From positions 1-48,364 of the IMG/VR virus record IMGVR_UViG_3300025917_000027: 48,364 nt of DNA. One strand, written 5' to 3'. The position numbers were made by a program, and so were the translations under genes. Of this stretch, positions 23,797 to 45,814 are shown in pieces. Position 1 is the first letter of the stretch. Each line of letters opens with the position of its first letter. Source of the DNA: a virus. The notes below the pieces were generated by a model. It had not been told where the DNA came from. It did no database searches and was given only the letters and a program-made list of their open reading frames with translations.

Positions 23797-25293
23797 TTAC
23801 CGTGCTTCGATCCTGACAAACGGGGAGAGCGTGGCGCCGGTGTTCTTCGGAGTGATCGCGCTCTGCAACCAGGGACGACCGTCCACCCGTTCGATGATCC
23901 GGTACGCCGTGGTGTCCTGGTTGAACTTGAAATGCGGACTCGACATCGCGCTCATGACCTGTCGGTCGCCTACCAGGTAGAAACCGAAGTCCACGAACGA
24001 GATGTCGCCGGCCGCGCCGAGCTTCGGCGCCTTCTCGGTGAAGATGACCGGTCGGCCCAGAATCGACATCGGCGGACCGGCGGCACCGTTGTTCAGCCAG
24101 ATGGCCGAACCACCGGTACCCACCGAGAGCGCCATGGTGGCCAATTCCGGGAAGGTGTCGATGCTGGCGACCCATACCGCCCGGCCGACGCTGGACGGCA
24201 GCATGCGCGAGAACATCTTGACGATGTTCTCCCAGACGATCGTGCCGGCCGTCTGGCCGACTTCCTTCGTCACGCTGATCATGGCGGTGTTCTGTGCGGC
24301 CAGCGCGCCGAGCGGCATACCGACACCGCTCCCGTTCATGAACGCGTCATCTTCGTAGAAGCCCAGGGCCTCCGGGAAGATCTGATCCATGAACGCCATG
24401 AACGACTGACCGGAATCGCTCAGCAGCTCATTTGGCACTTCGGTGTACGCAGTGAGCTTTTTCGCGTCGAGCACAATCCGACCGAATGCCGCCTGAGAGG
24501 CGGTGAGCGTCGCGCCCTCCTCGGTCCAGTACCCGACGATGCCGCCGTAGACCGACGTCGCGTTGGTGGTCGAATCGATGGACGGGAACGGCACCCGCAG
24601 CGATTCCATCGGAATGATGCGGGCCCGCGGCCGGACGATCGACGTTTCCAGCGACACCCGCAGCAGTTCCGAGCGCAGCGTTTCGGGAATCAGAAAACCG
24701 CCCTCGCTCGGTACCGTCGAGCTGAACGCGTTGCGCACGCGCTTCATGCGCGACTCATCCTCGGGCGAGCGCTGGTGGTTGTTCAGGTGCCAGATCTGTT
24801 GGAAGTACTCGGCGCTGTTCTTGAACTCACCGTTGATCGAGGCGCCCATGGCCGCCTGGTTGAACAGGCCGGCGCGGTTGATCGCGGACTGCGCGGTGGC
24901 CGGCACGTCGGACACGTCGAGCCGGCGCGGACCGTTGCGTGGGCCGTTGGCGTCCTGATCCTTCGCCCACTGGGCCATGAACTGCTGGATCTGCGTCCTG
25001 ATCTGTTCACTGATATCGGTGTCCCGCGCCACGGTGGCACGCGCGTAGTTCGTGATCAGGTTCTTGAGGCTGGTCGGACTGGCGAACACCTGCTGCATGC
25101 GCGCGCTGTCGCCGATCAGATCCTCGAGCTCGGCCGGGCTGGTCGGAATGGTGATCTCGGGACCGGGCGCCGGTACGGTGCGGTTGTAGATGCGCCCCAC
25201 CTCGGTGGGATCGATGCCGGCCGCCTCGAGCAGTGCGAGCGTGTGCCGTGACCGCGCGGCCTCGCGTACCCGGCGGTTGTCCATGACCTTCAT
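23797..25293 (-). CDS. major capsid protein, HK97 fold (498 aa)
   Basis: An N-terminal helical delta-like region (about 1-165) precedes the classic family stretch VPSEGGFLIPETLRSELLRV, the E-loop/P-domain region FPSIDSTTNATSVYGGIVG YW and KKLTAYTEVPNELLSDSG, then EDDAFMNGSGVGMPLGALAA, and the C-terminal FGFYLVGDRQVMSAMSSPHF and RVDGRPWLQSAITP. It forms the icosahedral shell. The stop of the protease gene overlaps its ATG (ATGA at 25290), giving the usual protease-capsid order. The long N-terminus probably acts as the scaffolding domain removed by the protease. Confidence 0.95.
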   Translation of the reverse strand: MKVMDNRRVREAARSRHTLALLEAAGIDPTEVGRIYNRTVPAPGPEITIPTSPAELEDLIGDSARMQQVFASPTSLKNLITNYARATVARDTDISEQIRTQIQQFMAQWAKDQDANGPRNGPRRLDVSDVPATAQSAINRAGLFNQAAMGASINGEFKNSAEYFQQIWHLNNHQRSPEDESRMKRVRNAFSSTVPSEGGFLIPETLRSELLRVSLETSIVRPRARIIPMESLRVPFPSIDSTTNATSVYGGIVGYWTEEGATLTASQAAFGRIVLDAKKLTAYTEVPNELLSDSGQSFMAFMDQIFPEALGFYEDDAFMNGSGVGMPLGALAAQNTAMISVTKEVGQTAGTIVWENIVKMFSRMLPSSVGRAVWVASIDTFPELATMALSVGTGGSAIWLNNGAAGPPMSILGRPVIFTEKAPKLGAAGDISFVDFGFYLVGDRQVMSAMSSPHFKFNQDTTAYRIIERVDGRPWLQSAITPKNTGATLSPFVRIEAR

Positions 25294-26039
25294 GCGAGCG
25301 CCCCTCTCACGGCTGCGCGGAACATACTCGGATCCCAGGTCGCCGCGATTGTCGGCACGGGGTCAAGCTCGGGGGCCGGCGCGTTGCCACGTCCGGCGTA
25401 CCCGTAGATCGAAAGGTCCCAGGAATTGCTGGCGCTGGAGTTGCCGGCCACTTCATCGGCAAGGCCGGCTTCGACAGCTTCCTTCGCCGAGTACCACGTC
25501 TCGGCCTTCATCCGGTCACGCCATTGCCTCGGCGTGCCGCCGGCCCGATCGGCGTACACCGAGGCGATGTTGTCGCTGACCCGATCCAACTGATTGATCA
25601 TCTCGGCCATGTCCGCGGCGTTGCCGACGCAGATCCCCATGCCGTCATGGATCATCATCTGCGACTGGCGGGCGACGATGCGGTGATCGCCGGCCATCGC
25701 GATCACCGATCCGATGGACGCCGCAAGCGCATCGACGTAGACGGTGATCTCGGCCCGGTGCTGGCGCAGCGCTTCGTAGATCGCGAAGCCGTCGAACACC
25801 TCGCCACCTGGGGTGTTGAGGTGGAGCGCGATCCGATCCCGGTCGATCTCGTTCAGGTCGTGAACGAAATCCTTCGCAGTCGTACCGAAGTATCCGATTT
25901 CGTCGTAAATGTAGATCTCGGCGCCGTCCGAGCGGTTGGTGATCCGGTACCAATCGGTGCGCCCCTCGCGCAACTTGGCGACCGGTCGCGCCATGCGCAA
26001 CCGCGCACTGTTCACGATGCGGTAGCGCTTAGCCGCCAT
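25290..26039 (-). CDS. ClpP-like head maturation protease (249 aa)
   Basis: Matches ClpP/S49-type prohead proteases: IYIYDEIGYFGTTAKDFVHD, IALHLNTPGGEVFDGFAIYE, catalytic Ser in AASIGSVIAMAGD (S108), and His in MMIHDG (H131). It should cleave the N-terminal part of the capsid protein during prohead maturation. The C-terminal 40 residues are Pro/Asn-rich. Lies immediately upstream of the capsid gene in the operon. Confidence 0.92.
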   Translation of the reverse strand: MAAKRYRIVNSARLRMARPVAKLREGRTDWYRITNRSDGAEIYIYDEIGYFGTTAKDFVHDLNEIDRDRIALHLNTPGGEVFDGFAIYEALRQHRAEITVYVDALAASIGSVIAMAGDHRIVARQSQMMIHDGMGICVGNAADMAEMINQLDRVSDNIASVYADRAGGTPRQWRDRMKAETWYSAKEAVEAGLADEVAGNSSASNSWDLSIYGYAGRGNAPAPELDPVPTIAATWDPSMFRAAVRGALA

Positions 26040-26126: not shown

Positions 26127-26372
26127 TTACAGCTCCTCGTAGACGGTCATGATCTTACCGTTGCTGTACCCGGTCTCCACCAGCTTGCCGAACGCCGTGG
26201 GTTGGTCGCACTGACCCATGATCATGACGGTCCGGAGAATGTCGCCGGCCAGCGAATCGCCGGACGCCACGATCCGGCCGTCATCGCGGCGGGTCAGGGT
26301 GGCCAACTGCTCGCCCTCGGCGCCCTCGCCGGTCACCGTGACGAACCGGATCCGATCAGCCATGATTCTCAC
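26127..26372 (-). CDS. small hypothetical protein (81 aa)
   Basis: GTG at 26372 overlaps the stop of the giant portal gene; ATG at 26363 is an alternative start. Beta-rich: RIRFVTVTGEGAEGEQLATL, RTVMIMGQCDQPTAFGK. No family recognised. It sits between the portal fusion and the protease. Confidence 0.65.
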   Translation of the reverse strand: MRIMADRIRFVTVTGEGAEGEQLATLTRRDDGRIVASGDSLAGDILRTVMIMGQCDQPTAFGKLVETGYSNGKIMTVYEEL

Positions 26373-29300
26373 ACTCCAAGAATCGAACTGCCATCTGTTC
26401 CGCGCGCATGTCCGGCCAGTTGATCCAACTGTCCGAGGCTGTAATCGAGCCAGTCGCCACGTCCGACCAGCTCAAAGTCGGGTCGCATGGCCTGCAACCG
26501 GCGGCGAATCTCGGCTATGTCATTCTGCGACAGGTCATTGTCGATCCAGTGCGGCCCGTCCTTTCCCTCGCGCACGTAGTTCCATGTCGGCTTAGCCTCG
26601 GAGATGCCGCCGACGCCACGTGGACCGGGTGGGTTGCCGAGCACGTGATCGAGCCAGCCGGCGCCGTGGTCGATACCGACCAGCGAACCATCCTCGGCAA
26701 TGATCATATTTCCGCTGTTCCGGTCCGACTGACCGGTAAGCACATCGAGCAGACCGAGCCGGCGTCCCTCGAGCGACGTCATGTACGCCTCTTGCGTCAG
26801 TCGGGCACCTACTGTTTCGCCCAACTCAGCAATGACTTTGCCCTCGATGTACTCGACGTACACCCGGTCAACGGCGTCGCGGTACACCGCGGCCGTCTTG
26901 ATGCCGAGACGGTGCGCCATCCTGGCCACCAGTTGCTCAGCGTCCGCCTGGTGCTTGTTGTCGGCGACATCGCCCCAGGACGGCGGACGCTTGTTGACCA
27001 CCTTCCGGCCGTCCGCCAGCACGCCGAGCCTGGTGTCCGACGACTGGCCGCCCGTGAGCTTCGTCCAGTTGGTCGTGCCGGCCTTGCTGCCCTTGACGGT
27101 GTTCGCCAGCGGTCCGAGGCCATCCATATCGTTGTGGTACGGCCGGGCGGCTTTCGGCACCTCGGGTATCCGGTCAGCGCGCGCACGTGCGGCATCCCAG
27201 ATCGGTACGACGGTTCCGCGGCATCGCGGCCCGCCGAGACAATCCTTGAATCCACCGCTCGGATAGTCCTGCAACGCGTCCTGCACGGTGTCGTACTGGT
27301 GACCATCGATCTTAGCGCAGAGCGCGCAGAGCGAGGCGTCGTTGTACTCGACCGCAACGTACCGGGCGTCGAACCCCTGATCCTCCAGCGCCTGCATTGT
27401 TGCGAACCGGCCGGCGTTCTGGGCGGCGGTGAGCGCACCGCCGAGGTTGTCACGCAGATACCGGTCGGACAGTCCGGTCAGGTGCTCGGTAACGTCGGCT
27501 GCCACCTCGTCACCGGTCGCCTCTGGGGTCAGCACCTGAAGCGCCCGGCGACCGGCCGCGTTCGCGAGCGAGCTCGCCAGCAGGGCAGTCACGGCAACGG
27601 CGGTCGCCTGCAACTGCTCGGGGGGTGGCTCGACCGGCCGTGCGCCGGGGATGCCCTGCACGCTGGCATCGTCGGCCACGCCTTGAGCGCCGAGTAGCGC
27701 GAGCGCACTCATCGCGACCGTCAGCGCGTGCTCACCATCGCGCGTGGACACGGACATGGTGCCCAGCGCCGGCCTGTCCCCCCGGTCCACCGCGGCGCGC
27801 ACCTGGGTAGCCAGTTGCTCGCGCTGGTTGGCGGACACGGAATCCCAGTCGTCGAGCAGACTTTCAAGCGCAGTCTGCCAGTCGCCTTGGATCGCCGCGG
27901 CGGTCGCCGCATGATCGCTCTCGGCATTGCGCAACGGTCGCCAGGACAGCACTTCCCGCAGCTCGAGCAGTGCCGCCGCGGTGTCACCCGGAGCGCCGGC
28001 AACGCCGCGCGGACCAGCGGCGCCGCGCTCCCCCCGCTCGCCGCGGTCTCCCGGAGTGCCGGGTTCACCGCGCAGTTCGTCACGGTGGTGGGCGAGCAGG
28101 TGGGTCACCACGTCCGGTACGGCCGGCGCCGGCCCGCGCTCGCCGCGATCGCCCGGCTCACCGCGCAGTTCGTCACGGTGGTGCGCGAGCAGATGGGCCG
28201 ACACCTCGGCGACCGGGGGCACAGGACCACGCTCGCCACGCTCGCCGGCCGGGCCCGGGGCGCCGTCGCGTCCCGGCTCACCGCGCAGTTCGTCACGGTG
28301 GTGGGCGAGCAGATGGGTTGCCACCTCGGCGGCCGGCACCATCGCGCCACGCTCCCCCCGCTCGCCGCGGAGCATGGCGGCCGGCTGGCCGGCGCCGAAC
28401 GGCGCAGCGGCCGCCGGCTTCTCCGGTGGAGCGAGCGCGAGGTTGAGATCGGCGCCGGCCGCGTTCAAGAGCTCGCGCGCCTCGCCCCAGGTGATCACCG
28501 TGTCCACGCCGAGGTAGATCTTCTGGATCATCTCGGCAAGCTCGCGTGGGTTGGCACCTTCGGTCTTGCCGTAGCCGGCCGGCAGCATGGTTGCCATCTC
28601 CGGCATGCCGCACATGGCGCACGCCACGTCCGCCGGAATGCCCCGATCGAGCAACGCGGTCAGCGCGTTGACCTGCGCTGTCAGTTCGGCTGCCTTCGCC
28701 TGGCGATCGGCGGGTACAGGATCGCGGTAATCGAACTCCAGCCCGCGGGCGGTCAGCCCGAACTTCGGCAGGAAGTCATTGTTCAGGAATTGCTTCCACC
28801 GTTCACACCGCGGCTTGACCAGCCAGCGACCGAACACCACTTCAGCCGCTTCGGCGTTGGCCCGGTTCACATCGTCCACAGAGCCGAGCAACGGCTTCGG
28901 AAAGCCGAAGGCCATCCGGATTGTCTCATCGCTCAGATGGCGCAGCTCCGCGAACTGCATATCCCGCATGCTGAACTTCCGGTCGACCCACTTACCACGC
29001 TCCAGGATGGCCACCCGATGCGCCTGCGACACACCCTGGTGCTGCTCACGCCAGCGTGACGTGAATTGCTTGAACTCCTGATCGCTGAGTCGGGTCTCAA
29101 ACTGGATCACACCGCCCGGCTCCGCGCTGTTCAGGAAGAAATTGCGGTTCCACTCCGCGGTGTACCGCGCGGCGTCGATGTCCACCATCAGCGACTGGAC
29201 CGGGCCCATGCCGCGGTACGGGTCGAGCGGATTGGGCATCCGGAGCATGGCCACCTGGTCACGCTCCAACGGAATCCTCGCCCCGTCCGGCGCGGTGTAG

Positions 29301-29764
29301 GTGTACCCGACGATGAACTCCTCGGGATCCGGCACCGGCTCGATCCGGTCAGGACGCACAAACCAGATCTCTTGCGGAAAGCCGAACGCGTTGTTCAGAA
29401 AGATCGGCCAGCCCTCACCGGTGAGGTCCACATGTTGCTGAACCGACTCGACCAGCTCCTGCCGCGTGTAGAACGGATTCGGTTTGTTCCATGTATCCAG
29501 CGCGGCATGCCGGACGACCTTCTCGCGGTCGTCCATGGTGCCGGACGGCCCGGGCTTCCAGAGGTCCCACTCGACGCCGGCCGTCGCGTTGGCGCACCGC
29601 GAGACAATCTGGAACAGCACACCGAGCGCGCCGTATGCCCGCATCTGCGTCTCGGCAGTGTTGCGCCCGATGACGTGGCCGAAAACTCCCCGGGCGCCGG
29701 ACACGAACGGCACGGGGGTGGCGTTCCTGATCGCGCTGGCCAGACCACCCACAAAGCTCCGCAT
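26369..29764 (-). CDS. portal - collagen-like - MuF - kinase-like fusion protein (1131 aa)
   Basis: ATG at 29764 preferred to an upstream start (29818) inside the terminator hairpin. About residues 30-390 are an HK97-type portal (GWPIFLNN...GFPQEIWFVRPDRI; GMGPVQSLMVDID; FGFPKPLLGSVDDVNRANAE). About 465-595 are collagen-like triplets (GERGERG, GEPGRDGAPGPAGERGERG) broken by three copies of a THLLAHHRDELRGEPG unit. About 770-856 are a MuF-type minor head domain with a Cys cluster (CALCAKIDG, C813/C816, then C842/C848). About 912-1037 resemble a PI3/4-kinase or HipA-like lobe: VVNKRP (K925), SDRNSGN (D1014, N1018), GIDHG (D1032). The portal ring is the DNA gate; the C-terminal domains may be packaged or injected. 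Confidence 0.85.
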   Translation of the reverse strand: MRSFVGGLASAIRNATPVPFVSGARGVFGHVIGRNTAETQMRAYGALGVLFQIVSRCANATAGVEWDLWKPGPSGTMDDREKVVRHAALDTWNKPNPFYTRQELVESVQQHVDLTGEGWPIFLNNAFGFPQEIWFVRPDRIEPVPDPEEFIVGYTYTAPDGARIPLERDQVAMLRMPNPLDPYRGMGPVQSLMVDIDAARYTAEWNRNFFLNSAEPGGVIQFETRLSDQEFKQFTSRWREQHQGVSQAHRVAILERGKWVDRKFSMRDMQFAELRHLSDETIRMAFGFPKPLLGSVDDVNRANAEAAEVVFGRWLVKPRCERWKQFLNNDFLPKFGLTARGLEFDYRDPVPADRQAKAAELTAQVNALTALLDRGIPADVACAMCGMPEMATMLPAGYGKTEGANPRELAEMIQKIYLGVDTVITWGEARELLNAAGADLNLALAPPEKPAAAAPFGAGQPAAMLRGERGERGAMVPAAEVATHLLAHHRDELRGEPGRDGAPGPAGERGERGPVPPVAEVSAHLLAHHRDELRGEPGDRGERGPAPAVPDVVTHLLAHHRDELRGEPGTPGDRGERGERGAAGPRGVAGAPGDTAAALLELREVLSWRPLRNAESDHAATAAAIQGDWQTALESLLDDWDSVSANQREQLATQVRAAVDRGDRPALGTMSVSTRDGEHALTVAMSALALLGAQGVADDASVQGIPGARPVEPPPEQLQATAVAVTALLASSLANAAGRRALQVLTPEATGDEVAADVTEHLTGLSDRYLRDNLGGALTAAQNAGRFATMQALEDQGFDARYVAVEYNDASLCALCAKIDGHQYDTVQDALQDYPSGGFKDCLGGPRCRGTVVPIWDAARARADRIPEVPKAARPYHNDMDGLGPLANTVKGSKAGTTNWTKLTGGQSSDTRLGVLADGRKVVNKRPPSWGDVADNKHQADAEQLVARMAHRLGIKTAAVYRDAVDRVYVEYIEGKVIAELGETVGARLTQEAYMTSLEGRRLGLLDVLTGQSDRNSGNMIIAEDGSLVGIDHGAGWLDHVLGNPPGPRGVGGISEAKPTWNYVREGKDGPHWIDNDLSQNDIAEIRRRLQAMRPDFELVGRGDWLDYSLGQLDQLAGHARGTDGSSILGV

Positions 29765-29801
29765 GCCGTGATGGTAGGCCCCGGAACAGACCCTGAACAG
29801 C

Positions 29802-29834
29802 GAAGCGCCCCGGAGCATCGCTCCGGGGCGCTTC
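29802..29834 (-). terminator. 15-bp terminator hairpin before portal gene
   Basis: GAAGCGCCCCGGAGC pairs perfectly across a 3-base loop with its complement; followed on the - strand by CTGTTC. Placed 38 bases before the portal ATG, it could end the small RNA and also limit readthrough into the portal gene. Confidence 0.75.
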
Positions 29835-29944
29835 CGTGTCGATCGCGTTGCGCTTCCCGCTACGGACTCTCACCGCGGCGCGTGGCCTGATGTACGGCTC
29901 TGGGGTGCTGGACTTCCACCAACCTCGGTACACCGCGATCGACT
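29802..29944 (-). ncRNA. promoter-driven structured small RNA upstream of the portal gene
   Basis: Promoter 29952-29979 predicts a start near 29944. The RNA opens with a 10-bp closing stem (29934-29943 with 29838-29847) around about 85 bases with inner helices: GTTGG/CCAGC around TGGAAGT, TGTAC/GTACA, and CCGC/GCGG. It ends at a 15-bp hairpin (29802-29834). It has no ORF with a ribosome site. Conserved-looking islands such as GGTGGAAGTCC and GTGAGAGTCCGTAGCGGGAAG recall, from memory only, HEARO/omega-RNA-type RNAs; no IscB or HNH gene is present in the window. Confidence 0.6.
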
Positions 29945-29979
29945 AGTGACCAGCATAGACGCTACTAGTGACACGTCAA
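29942..29979 (-). promoter_or_regulatory. leftward promoter Pa with operator
   Basis: - strand -35 TTGACG (29979-29974), 16-bp spacer, -10 TATGCT (29957-29952). The palindrome TGACACGTCA (29969-29978) overlaps the -35. ACTAGTGAC is repeated at 29942 and 29964, 22 bp apart. Same build as the promoters at 36.5, 38.7, 41.9 and 46.2 kb. Confidence 0.75.
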
Positions 29980-31265: not shown

Positions 31266-32621
31266 CTACATGAACCGGATACCCGGCCGGCCGACAAGAT
31301 CAATCTGAGCCACCATGTACCGCATTGCGTCACAACCGTCGTCGTCACGCTTCAACGGCGTTTCCTTCGGAAGCTTGCCGGCGCCAACGTCCCAGATGTA
31401 ACCCGCGATCTCCTCGGCGGTACAGCAGGGTTTCTTGGCGTCGGCCTGAGCCTGATCGCGCTGGACCAACGAATCGCGCAGAATGAACAGGCGCGGCCCG
31501 CCGGGCTGGTCCGGTCTCATCCGCATGTCCACCGCCTGGATACCGGCGATCACGGACTTCTCGGCGGCATCGGTCACCAGCTCGAGATGCTTCTCCAACT
31601 GCGCCCGGCCTTCAGCGTCATGATCACAGATGATCGAAGTGGGCATGGGCTCGAGCCATGTACCCTCGGCATCCGTAACGCAGGACAGCATGTCGACGGC
31701 ATGCACATCCACCGTCCGACGGGTGTGGTAGATCTCCCGGTACATGAACAGCCGGCCGTCCGGATCCTCGGCCCACCACTGGCAGACGAAGGGATGGGTA
31801 TATCCGAAGTCGACCACCCAGTACCGCGCCCAGTCGGCCGGAATATCGAACCGGTCGATCACGTGGATCGCCGGATCGTACTGATCAAAGACGGCACCCT
31901 CGGCGCTCACCCACAACCCCCGACGAAGACGCGCATGCCGTGGTCCGGTCAGCGCGTCCAGTTTGGACATGTATTCTCGGCCGAAGTCAGTCAGGACGTA
32001 CTGAATCTGCCCATCGACAATCCTGATATCAAACAGGATCGGATTATCCTCATGGCGCGATTCGAGTTCCTTTGCCTTACCCTCATCGCACCGCATCTTC
32101 AGCCAGTGGATCGGAGTGGACGGATTGGTATCCGCCATCAGCTGTTGAAACGACACAACGCCGTTGCGGAGCCGGGTGGTCAGCGCCTCCCAGTCATCCA
32201 CGGTCAGCTCGATCGCTTCCTGGACATAGATCACGTCGTACTCACTGGACATGATCTTGGTTGGATTGTCCAGCCCGCCGACGACGATGACCGACCCGTT
32301 GCCGTACCGGTACGCGGCCGGCTCACGCGACGAACCGCCGAACCACTTCACGATGCCAGCCGACAGCGCTTCGATGGCAACCTGTTTCTCGTAGGTCACG
32401 AGCGCCGTCGTGCCGAGGCTGACCAACGTCTTACGGACGATCAGGCCACGCATACCGGGGTTGGACAACGCCATCGCGTGCAGCTTTTCCAGACAGGCGC
32501 GCGACTTGCCCGTACCGGCCGGGCCGGACACCAGCACTTCGGGACCGCGGTACGCGAACAACTCCGCGCACCGCCCGCGCGGGCGGTACCGGTGCACCAG
32601 CGGCGCGAGCGTGATGGTCAT
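31266..32621 (-). CDS. terL: terminase large subunit (451 aa)
   Basis: Walker A is GPAGTGKS (33-40). Walker B is DVIYVQE (129-135), with the catalytic Glu. RNaseH-fold nuclease residues are visible in YWVVDFGYTHPF (D271), SIICDHDAEG (D333/D335) and the C-terminal DDDGCDAMRY (D426-428, D431). It powers DNA translocation into the prohead and cuts the concatemer. The TerS candidate is upstream in the same operon. ATGA overlap with the upstream gene. Confidence 0.95.
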   Translation of the reverse strand: MTITLAPLVHRYRPRGRCAELFAYRGPEVLVSGPAGTGKSRACLEKLHAMALSNPGMRGLIVRKTLVSLGTTALVTYEKQVAIEALSAGIVKWFGGSSREPAAYRYGNGSVIVVGGLDNPTKIMSSEYDVIYVQEAIELTVDDWEALTTRLRNGVVSFQQLMADTNPSTPIHWLKMRCDEGKAKELESRHEDNPILFDIRIVDGQIQYVLTDFGREYMSKLDALTGPRHARLRRGLWVSAEGAVFDQYDPAIHVIDRFDIPADWARYWVVDFGYTHPFVCQWWAEDPDGRLFMYREIYHTRRTVDVHAVDMLSCVTDAEGTWLEPMPTSIICDHDAEGRAQLEKHLELVTDAAEKSVIAGIQAVDMRMRPDQPGGPRLFILRDSLVQRDQAQADAKKPCCTAEEIAGYIWDVGAGKLPKETPLKRDDDGCDAMRYMVAQIDLVGRPGIRFM

Positions 32622-43177: not shown

Positions 43178-45814
43178 ATGAGCCGTACGGTCGTATGGTT
43201 TTCCGCCGGAGCGGCAAGCGCGGTTGCCGCCAAACTGACACTCGCCGAAACTGATCATCAAAACACTGAAATTGTTTATATCGATACCGGCAGCGAACAC
43301 CCGGACAATGTGCGCTTTCTCGCTGACTGTCAGAAATGGTTCGATCATGAAATCACGATCAAACGATCAGAGCGATATTGCGATACATGGCAAGTTTGGG
43401 AAGAAAGACGCTTTTTGATAGGACCTACCGGCGCACTGTGCACGACGGAACTTAAGAAAAAGGTACGGTTCGCATTTCAAGAGGCGGACGATGTTCAGGT
43501 CTTCGGTTTCACCGCCGACCCGCGTGAGGTCAAGCGTGCCGAGCGATTCCGAGAGCAGAATCCAGAGGTCACCCTCGAAACGCCCCTAATCGAGCGAGGT
43601 CTCACGAAAGCCGACTGTCTCGGATTTGTCGACCGCGCCGGTATCAAACTGCCGGCAATGTATCTACTCGGATATCAGAACAATAACTGTATTGGTTGCG
43701 TCAAGGGCGGCATGGGTTACTGGAATAAAATCCGGCGAGACTTTCCGGACGTGTTTGCTCGAATGGCAAAACTTGAACAGAGTCTAGGTCACACAATTTT
43801 GCGAGAAAACGGTCAGCCGCTACCACTCATCGCGCTGAACCCAACCCGAGGCAGGTACTCTGATGAACCAGAAATCGAGTGTTCGGCATTATGTGAAGCC
43901 GCGATTGTAGTTGAAGCCGATCAACCGAAAGGGCGAAGGATGGGAACCGAAAGTACCGATGAAATCGCCGCGCGCCACTCCGAGAACGAGGTACGCAACC
44001 AGCGCCTGATCATTACCGCCTGGCAGGCGTTCACGCCGCCGGAGTCCGGTGAGTCGACCACGCCGATCGTGGCGAAGATGCTCGGTGTCGCGTTCCTGGA
44101 ACTGGCAAAAGTGTTCCACGAGACTGCCGACGCGCACGAACGTTCCACGCGGCGCGGCTCAAAGGGCATGAGTACGTCGTACCGCCAGGCTGCCGCGTTC
44201 GTGGCCGGCGTCGGCCAGTCACTGGAACGCGATGCGCGCACCGCCGAGCTCACCACGGCACTGCCGGAGACCGTCACCGTCAAAATGCCCTACGGCGTTG
44301 ATCGCGAGGTTCCGCGCGACGAAGCGGTGGGCGAAATCCTGTTCGGCGAGGGTATCAACAAACTGATGACCGATGCCGTGAACAAGATCGAGTCCATGAT
44401 ATTTGAGCCGAAGTCTGATCTACCGAACACGTTGCAACCCGGCGCGCTTGTCGATCGAGCGGTTGGGGGTGAGTCCGATCCCAGGTTGGAGAAGATCACA
44501 CTCACCGAACGGGTCGGCGGCAACAGGACGATCGGCGAACAGGTGGCGCTGGTCACCTATCCCGGTCAGTCGCCGATCGGCGTATCGATGGAGGATTTCG
44601 AGGCGCTACTCAGAACTGAGCCGTGGAAGACTCACGCGAACGTGAGCCGGAATGCTGACGGCATTTTCAGTGCGGAACTGCCGAGCGATGTGATCGACAT
44701 CATGGGCCTGAATCCGGAGCCGGCCATCACCGTACACGAAGTGCCGACGTTCGCCGAACCACTGACAGTCATCGAGCTCGACCGCCGTACCAAGGTGCAC
44801 GGGAGGATCAGCGCCTACATCCGAGGGGACACCAACGCCATGCCGCCACTGGATATCCAGCAGACTGCCGACCCCTTCACCGATCCGACGCCGGTCGAGC
44901 GGCTGAACGGCTACGCCGGCCGGCGCCTGAGCGTCGATGAGCTGATGGCGGCACCCCCCGAGCTTCCCTCGCCCGATCATCGCTCGGTGTCCCAGCTCGA
45001 GGAATATTCCGACTGTGGGCTGCGCTACCGGCTGGCCAGGCGTACCCGAGGCATCGTCCAGACGCCGGCCTGGTGGAACGTCGGCGGTAACGCGCTGCAC
45101 GCCGCGATCGAGGAGCTGGAGCGCGCACAGGCGGTTGCACAGCCGGCGCCCCGGCCGATCGTTGAGCAGTGGAAGCATCACCTGGGCGCGGCCATCACCG
45201 CGACCTTCGCGGATCACCCGGACGCCGGCCCGCTGGATCGCTGGCGCGCGGCGCGCGGTGGCGCCGAGGGGTACACGTGGTGGCTGGTGGAGGGTGAGCG
45301 CATGCTCGACGCCTACGTGACGATGCGCGCCGAGATGGATCGCCTCGACCCCGGCCGCCGGGTGCTGCACGTTCCCAACACCGATCTGTTCGCGCTGGAA
45401 TGGCCGTTCCAGTTCCAATACGGACAGCACCCGACGCAGGTGATCGACGGTCGGATCGATCAGGTGTGGACGCGTGGGGACGGCTCGATCGAGATTGTGG
45501 ACATGAAGTTCGGCAGCAGTGTGCCGACCGACACGTTCCAGCTTGGCGTGTACGCACATGCGCTGATGCGACAGTGGCCGGCGCCGGACGTACAAACCGG
45601 CTCGACCGTCATCACCGGTCGGTACTGGCTCGGTCGCAAGGGTGAGTTCACCGAACCGGTCAACCTGCTGGAGCGCCACCCCTGGGGAGAGATTGTCTAC
45701 CGGTTCACGACGATGGATCGTGCGGAGCGCGCGAACATCCACGTGCCCCGGCCGTCGAGTTTCTGTAGGTCGTGCGCCGTGCGTGGCGCCTGCCCGATCG
45801 GCGGCCGGTCGTGA
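43178..45814 (+). CDS. PAPS-reductase-like / Cas4-like nuclease fusion (878 aa)
   Basis: Residues 1-250 match phage PAPS-reductase-type proteins (adenine nucleotide alpha hydrolase fold): WFSAGAASAVAAKL, IVYIDTGSEHPDNVRFLADC, GALCTTELKKKVR, GLTKADCLG, NNNCIGCVKGGMGYWNKIRR. The last ~290 residues are a RecB/Cas4-type PD-(D/E)xK nuclease: RSVSQLEEYSDCGLRYRLAR, NALHAAIEEL, VIDGRIDQV, IEIVDMKFG, FQLGVYAHAL, and a terminal Cys set SSFCRSCAVRGACPIG that could hold an Fe-S cluster. A middle part (about 255-590) is unrecognised. The first part is visibly less GC-rich. The reading frame is open throughout; M255 (43940) may mark the old second start. Confidence 0.85.
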   Translation: MSRTVVWFSAGAASAVAAKLTLAETDHQNTEIVYIDTGSEHPDNVRFLADCQKWFDHEITIKRSERYCDTWQVWEERRFLIGPTGALCTTELKKKVRFAFQEADDVQVFGFTADPREVKRAERFREQNPEVTLETPLIERGLTKADCLGFVDRAGIKLPAMYLLGYQNNNCIGCVKGGMGYWNKIRRDFPDVFARMAKLEQSLGHTILRENGQPLPLIALNPTRGRYSDEPEIECSALCEAAIVVEADQPKGRRMGTESTDEIAARHSENEVRNQRLIITAWQAFTPPESGESTTPIVAKMLGVAFLELAKVFHETADAHERSTRRGSKGMSTSYRQAAAFVAGVGQSLERDARTAELTTALPETVTVKMPYGVDREVPRDEAVGEILFGEGINKLMTDAVNKIESMIFEPKSDLPNTLQPGALVDRAVGGESDPRLEKITLTERVGGNRTIGEQVALVTYPGQSPIGVSMEDFEALLRTEPWKTHANVSRNADGIFSAELPSDVIDIMGLNPEPAITVHEVPTFAEPLTVIELDRRTKVHGRISAYIRGDTNAMPPLDIQQTADPFTDPTPVERLNGYAGRRLSVDELMAAPPELPSPDHRSVSQLEEYSDCGLRYRLARRTRGIVQTPAWWNVGGNALHAAIEELERAQAVAQPAPRPIVEQWKHHLGAAITATFADHPDAGPLDRWRAARGGAEGYTWWLVEGERMLDAYVTMRAEMDRLDPGRRVLHVPNTDLFALEWPFQFQYGQHPTQVIDGRIDQVWTRGDGSIEIVDMKFGSSVPTDTFQLGVYAHALMRQWPAPDVQTGSTVITGRYWLGRKGEFTEPVNLLERHPWGEIVYRFTTMDRAERANIHVPRPSSFCRSCAVRGACPIGGRS

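Follow-up and report, generated by a model that had tools for sequence, protein, structure and literature searches.

Introduction

Enzymes fused to MuF or portal proteins have been described as effectors that are delivered by the virion (PMC5576092, PMC5512222, PMC9503650). An effector on a head protein is thus a known class. In the MuF polymorphic toxins, a MuF domain encoded beside portal and terminase genes is combined with a variable C-terminal enzyme and a small downstream gene (PMC5576092, PMC3482391). In the polyvalent and head-fused proteins, PBECR, 2H, NUDIX, ART and zeta-kinase domains are fused to MuF or portal proteins and are proposed to be injected (Iyer et al., 2017, PMC5512222; PMC9503650). 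The present study concerns a single virus record of IMG/VR with a length of 48,364 bases (referred to as the window), in which one gene encodes a portal protein that continues into a collagen-like stalk, a MuF domain and a kinase-like domain, and is followed by a small gene of a family that was named WSNGY. The portal subunit probably carries a virion-packaged kinase effector, and the small gene would encode its cognate inhibitor or immunity protein, both forming a cassette that recombines onto head proteins.

The locus differs from the described systems in several respects. In contrast to the MuF polymorphic toxins, the portal itself carries the MuF domain, and the putative effector is a PI3/4K-HipA-like kinase. 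Jamet et al. (2017, PMC5576092) do not use the word "kinase" in their main text, and no MuF-kinase fusion was seen in the available sections of Zhang et al. (2012, PMC3482391). The protein kinases of polyvalent proteins are described as lacking the C-terminal subdomain and as occurring primarily in phages of Verrucomicrobia-Chlamydia and Bacteroidetes, and a cognate WSNGY partner was not seen in the available sections (PMC5512222, PMC9503650). The kinase of the window is also of another type than the zeta toxin. A kinase-type domain that is encoded beside head genes or carried by a portal protein is also present in halovirus HRTV-2 gp16 with its relatives and in the protein A0A6J5S481, whose entries showed no remark on it, but they are distant in sequence. 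No description of the kinase type, the partner, the hopping between scaffolds or the collagen-stalked portal was found in the literature searched, the coverage of which was partial, so that an earlier notice is possible.

Results and Discussion

Portal, Stalk, MuF and Kinase-Like Domain Are Encoded in One Frame

The original prediction had proposed, from the sequence alone, that one frame of 1131 codons encodes a portal, collagen-like Gly-x-y triplets with three copies of a repeat unit, a MuF region with a four-cysteine site and a C-terminal lobe resembling PI3/4-kinases and HipA. All of these parts were recovered (Table 1). The frame is open on the minus strand, from 29764 to 26369, and the plus-strand reading of the same region is interrupted by stop codons. 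The longest open reading frame (ORF) has 1149 codons (protein P0001, 26369..29818). Because the proteins of relatives begin with MRS.LG.L, which matches the second methionine of P0001, the ATG at 29764 was chosen as the start, and by this comparison it is the most likely one. Residue numbers refer to P0001 and exceed those of the 1131-residue protein by 18.

The portal domain reached 179 bits against PF04860 (cut-off 39.1). The longest run in the stalk consists of 10 consecutive Gly-x-y triplets, while only 5 of 20,000 shuffled linkers reached 7. The score of the stalk against PF01391 (3e-4, 20.8 bits) was under the cut-off of 27.2. The repeat unit HLLAHHRDELRGEPG is present three times between the Gly-x-y blocks, and the DNA repeat was also found in three copies. 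The MuF region matched the MuF proteins of Arthrobacter phages (tblastn, 6e-12) and was 37-52% identical to the MuF domains of relatives, in which the cysteines C831, C834, C860 and C866 recur. The curated Pfam MuF model PF04233 had no match anywhere in the record, and therefore the MuF domain of the window must be regarded as divergent.

Portal and MuF are joined in one ORF in eleven related viral contigs (two of them near-identical) and are encoded by separate genes in seven. Since eleven relatives share the fusion, a frame error does not explain how portal and MuF are joined. A frame error or a chimeric assembly could nevertheless have joined a portal gene, a collagen piece of a tail fibre and a kinase gene, as the window is a single record and Gly-x-y runs like those of the stalk were in none of the other loci fetched up to that comparison. 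However, the frame is intact across all 1131 codons, fusions of MuF and kinase were found in many other proteins, and portal, MuF and kinase are united in two other phages (loci L088 and L076), with a third, L064, combining portal and kinase. An artefact of this kind, which would have refuted the original prediction, is thus highly improbable.

The kinase domain was absent from all 49 loci with portal relatives (L002-L050). Relatives of the same lineage vary in what accompanies MuF: some proteins stop after it, and others carry a further enzyme domain. An ADP-ribosyltransferase (7.7e-15) precedes MuF in L023, and a ClpP-like head protease (5e-27) follows it in the same ORF in L024 (6378-7886). 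L065 and L074 belong to the portal lineage of the window and bear the kinase. Judged from these sequences, the variety of effectors matches the expectation for MuF proteins. Recurrent His/Gly-rich motifs were observed near effector domains in L018, L023, L052 and L079 (HPGHSDQSVHG, HPRDRRGRFTKS, HPHPGQKFLHGW and HLPGKHNQQSHG); they might signal packaging or processing.

The C-Terminal Domain Has a Kinase Fold

The motifs VVNKRP, SDRNSGN and GIDHG, which had led to the proposal of a PI3/4K- or HipA-like enzyme, all lie within one kinase fold. An AlphaFold2 model built with a 52-sequence alignment was of high confidence (pLDDT 90.1, pTM 0.90); a model with three sequences (pLDDT 52), the matches of which pointed to CtkA, was set aside. 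The best structural match of the former model was Helicobacter pylori CtkA (Z 14.3 over 217 residues, root mean square deviation 4.0), and further matches were actin-fragmin kinase and PI4KII-alpha (both Z 13.4) and HipA (Z 11.1). Foldseek retrieved PRPK, RIO2 and VPS34 at 1e-7 to 1e-6. This fold group includes both protein kinases and lipid kinases. CtkA and HipA/HipT are the closest solved folds across the whole domain, with 12-14% identity to the window kinase, and PI4KII-alpha, VPS34 and other PI3/4-kinases (PF00454) share the fold and the DRxxN...IDxG signature.

Lys943, the helix-C residue Glu961 and Asp1025 were invariant in the 52-sequence alignment and lie outside the pattern that was used to collect relatives. 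D1032, R1033, N1037 and D1050 were invariant too, but were demanded by the search pattern in most members.

The check proposed with the original prediction was a comparison with PF00454, HipA and FAM20-type kinases. The confident model and the fold matches bore out the kinase fold, but PF00454 alone was weak: the window kinase scored 13.8-16.3 bits (best E 0.0095) and did not reach the cut-off of 27.1, in contrast to its relatives in pMLP1 (29.7 bits) and L088 (29.2 bits). The HipA family had no match in the window sequence, in a search that could miss weak matches. FAM20 is less likely to be the nearest family; it was represented by a weak profile match to C. elegans H03A11.1 (6.6e-6), a Fam20 protein, and it was outside the best folds listed. 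From the model and the alignment, the domain is best read as a putative atypical kinase of the PI3/4K-HipA-CtkA group with its catalytic residues complete.

The Kinase Is Found on Different Head Proteins

Viral contigs were scanned with the DNA pattern DR[NH]xxN...IDHG, which yielded 92 stretches. All 81 ORFs examined matched the kinase profile, and 71 of them had already been recognized by the three-sequence profile of the first round. The kinase lies at the C-terminus: its end is at most 10 amino acids from the protein end in 55 of the 81 ORFs and at most 50 in 73. Such DNA patterns favour high-GC genomes. Among 49 kinase-bearing proteins, Pfam detected PF00454 in 40, PF06152 in 6, PF04233 in 6, VG15 in 5 and portal domains in 3; PHROGs added families of head morphogenesis, minor head and head maturation proteins and labelled the kinase itself as phrog_3162, of unknown function.

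L088 combines a portal (9.5e-60), MuF (2.5e-20) and a kinase above the PF00454 cut-off (1.1e-6); the scores of L076 were weaker. In Micromonospora phage pMLP1 a 42% identical relative of the kinase follows a different MuF family (PF06152, 1.7e-75). The kinase also forms the C-terminal end of gp82 of Microbacterium phage Pumpernickel, a protein of 2235 amino acids encoded two genes after the portal. HRTV-2 gp16, which is annotated as "phosphatidylinositol kinase", is encoded among head-completion genes. Viral structure matches included A0A6J5S481, a 1201-residue "Phage portal protein, HK97", and proteins of haloviruses and of Gordonia and Mycobacterium phages.

The scaffold types are scattered on the kinase tree, with at least 14 changes. 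The kinases of pMLP1 (PF06152) and L092 (phrog_1522) are sisters (support 100/99), and a single clade of the five phrog_1522-borne kinases was rejected (approximately unbiased (AU) test, p 2.4e-51). The window kinase is nearest to those of L092 and pMLP1 and not to those of L065 and L074 from its own portal lineage; a clade of the window with the latter two was weakly rejected (AU p 0.026). In these sequence trees, descent of the kinase together with one scaffold is rejected.

These results also bear on the idea that the kinase acts in the producing cell or the procapsid, where it would phosphorylate portal, protease or terminase, time packaging or maturation and remain undelivered. Its physical connection to portal or MuF and the adjacent protease and capsid genes are consistent with such a structural role. 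However, the kinase is missing from all 49 close portal relatives, unrelated scaffolds carry it, and another relative has an ADP-ribosyltransferase on its MuF protein. An assembly kinase is therefore regarded as improbable.

Searches by other routes yielded few relatives. Two pattern scans of genome contigs retrieved none, which has little weight because few patterns were used; the single kinase domain found no relative in the viral contigs searched, and the kinase alignment found only pMLP1 and L052/L053. A protein with a core of topoisomerase IB and one with a peptidoglycan-binding domain also end in the kinase (L082, 4660-8436, and L067, 3013-6837). Plasmids of Streptomyces and Verrucosispora (L055, 3371-6724; L056, 3188-6598) encode NUDIX proteins of about 1120 amino acids with a kinase-like stretch. 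As DRxxN is missing in the matched stretch, they were rejected as true relatives and are degenerate ones at most. A gene of the zeta-toxin family lies near the former (L055).

A Small Partner Gene Accompanies the Kinase

Directly after the kinase, the window contains a small gene that starts either with GTG 26372, so as to overlap the stop codon of the kinase, or with ATG 26363, 5 bases past the stop. It belongs to a family of ORFs of 60-90 amino acids with a terminal W-S-N-G-Y motif, which follow the kinase in many relatives. Both this gene and the spread of the kinase over other head proteins go beyond the original prediction. A profile was built from 24 seed ORFs and run on the small ORFs of all loci (E < 0.01). 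It retrieved 44 members, all 44 in kinase loci, and the 49 portal loci that lack the kinase contained no member; as the seeds were drawn from downstream of kinases, this coupling is partly by construction. The partner lies at most 150 nucleotides downstream of the kinase in 40 of the 44 cases, and some partners lie directly upstream, among them Pumpernickel gp81, which was outside the seeds. The partner ORF of the window was recognized at E 2.3e-5 when the window was excluded from the model, and at 4.2e-4 when its two nearest relatives were excluded as well.

A reverse scan with a DNA pattern for WSNGYV, which is independent of the kinase, revealed 13 new partner loci. The kinase was present in 10 (8 distinct loci, because two pairs were near-duplicates), 2 were cut by the contig end, and 1 was without a kinase. 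In L161 (3070-3733) the partner directly follows a 1063-residue ORF without a detectable kinase, which encodes either a kinase that has diverged or a different effector.

No convincing relatives of the partner were found in Pfam, PHROGs or PDB, and tblastn against the phage collection gave no match, the partner being too short and divergent for such a search. A HipS-like antitoxin gained no support, as the partner profile matched no HipS or HipA chain in PDB in a search that may overlook weak similarity. The WSNGY family appears to be undescribed.

The chief rival to a toxin with its immunity protein is a non-toxic kinase for counter-defence or host takeover, which would phosphorylate a defence protein or a host regulator, with the partner as its chaperone for loading into the head or for keeping it inactive there. 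The kinase of T7 modifies host proteins. Head-fused enzymes have been argued to counter host immunity (PMC9503650). The isolated phage Pumpernickel has the pair too, and the carriers include large phage proteins with topoisomerase IB and NUDIX domains. However, a coupled downstream gene that travels with the effector is the usual toxin-immunity layout in polymorphic toxins, although a chaperone would look identical. Taken together, a counter-defence kinase with a chaperone is rather unlikely, but it has to be taken more seriously than an assembly kinase.

Possible Mode of Action

A packaged effector with a cognate inhibitor is preferred, in part because the literature treats MuF- or portal-fused enzymes as injected effectors. 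The portal domain would build the ring, followed by the collagen-like stalk, MuF and the kinase. The kinase would be packaged in the head, enter the next host cell together with the DNA and phosphorylate a host target there. The partner would be made in the producing cell, where it could protect the cell or keep the kinase silent during assembly. We infer that each ring would carry twelve kinases, as fusion to the portal would set this copy number and position them at the exit; with twelve copies, four collagen trimers would be possible. The fusion protein may be cleaved, and the ClpP-like capsid protease is a possible processor.

Several points weigh against this proposal. Because the motif scan required DR.xxN and IDHG, only the lysine, the glutamate and one aspartate are independent evidence of catalysis. 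SPP1 has no more than one or two copies of its MuF protein (PMC5576092), and thus cleavage may be needed for twelve copies to fit. MuF toxins are characteristic of temperate phages (PMC5576092), and no match to PF00589 or PF00239, indicative of an integrase, was found in the record, which is possibly partial. Lastly, it is just as plausible that the partner serves as a packaging chaperone or as a substrate.

A wider proposal is that the kinase and its WSNGY partner form an undescribed toxin-immunity cassette which is widespread in phages and haloviruses, was repeatedly moved between head-protein families and is delivered here from the portal ring on collagen-like stalks. It is more tentative, and its chances are judged to be slightly below even.

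Genomic Context

The features of the locus are summarized in Table 1. The gene order is terminase, fusion gene, small partner gene, capsid protease and major capsid protein.

Table 1. Features of the portal-kinase locus; residue numbers are those of P0001.
Feature	Position	Strand	Basis or remarks
CDS portal - collagen-like stalk - MuF - kinase	26369..29764	-	Open frame; start by comparison with relatives; longest possible start 29818
HK97-type portal domain, residues 62-385	28664..29635	-	PF04860 1.7e-52; phrog_2662 2.6e-64; PDB 6te8 HK97-family portal 1.4e-24
Collagen-like stalk, residues 485-613	27980..28366	-	24 Gly-x-y triplets in four blocks split by HLLAHHRDEL repeats; Gly-x-y count, repeats
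MuF domain with CxxC...C...C, residues 795-887	27158..27436	-	phrog_595 2e-9; tblastn matches to proteins annotated as MuF in Arthrobacter phages
Kinase domain, residues 890-1149 (260 aa)	26372..27151	-	52-sequence alignment, AlphaFold2, fold matches
Catalytic-type residues K943, E961, D1025, D1032, R1033, N1037, D1050			Minus 18 in the numbering of the 1131-residue protein
WSNGY-family partner gene, 78 aa (ATG 26363) or 81 aa (GTG 26372)	26127..26372	-	Family HMM; reads GYSNGK
Terminase large subunit	31266..32621	-	phrog_2 3.2e-35
Capsid maturation protease, ClpP-like	25290..26039	-	phrog_2976 5e-80
Major capsid protein	23797..25293	-	phrog_10 2.6e-45

The roughly 1.4 kb that separate the terminase from the portal contain no recognisable gene. 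Just upstream of the portal start, the non-coding stretch 29795-29970 (minus strand) contains a strong GC hairpin with a fold 4.2 standard deviations below shuffled sequences; it had no Rfam family at the gathering threshold and none convincing below. Elsewhere in the window, positions 43178-45814 (plus strand) form a single frame of 878 codons with a PAPS-reductase-like (phrog_424, 2e-52) and an exonuclease-like domain (phrog_1870, 5e-22).

Implications

The results touch the open question of which enzymes enter the cell with the phage DNA and what work they do before gene expression. If the wider proposal above is true, phosphorylation would be among the first acts of infection. The findings indicate a class of kinases that is accompanied by a cognate partner and spread across many phages, suggest a function for phrog_3162, and define a partner family where Pfam and PHROGs gave no convincing match. 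Isolated carriers suited to testing are Pumpernickel (gp81/gp82), pMLP1 and HRTV-2 (gp16). The kinase-partner pair looks like an undescribed effector-and-protector cassette in phage heads.

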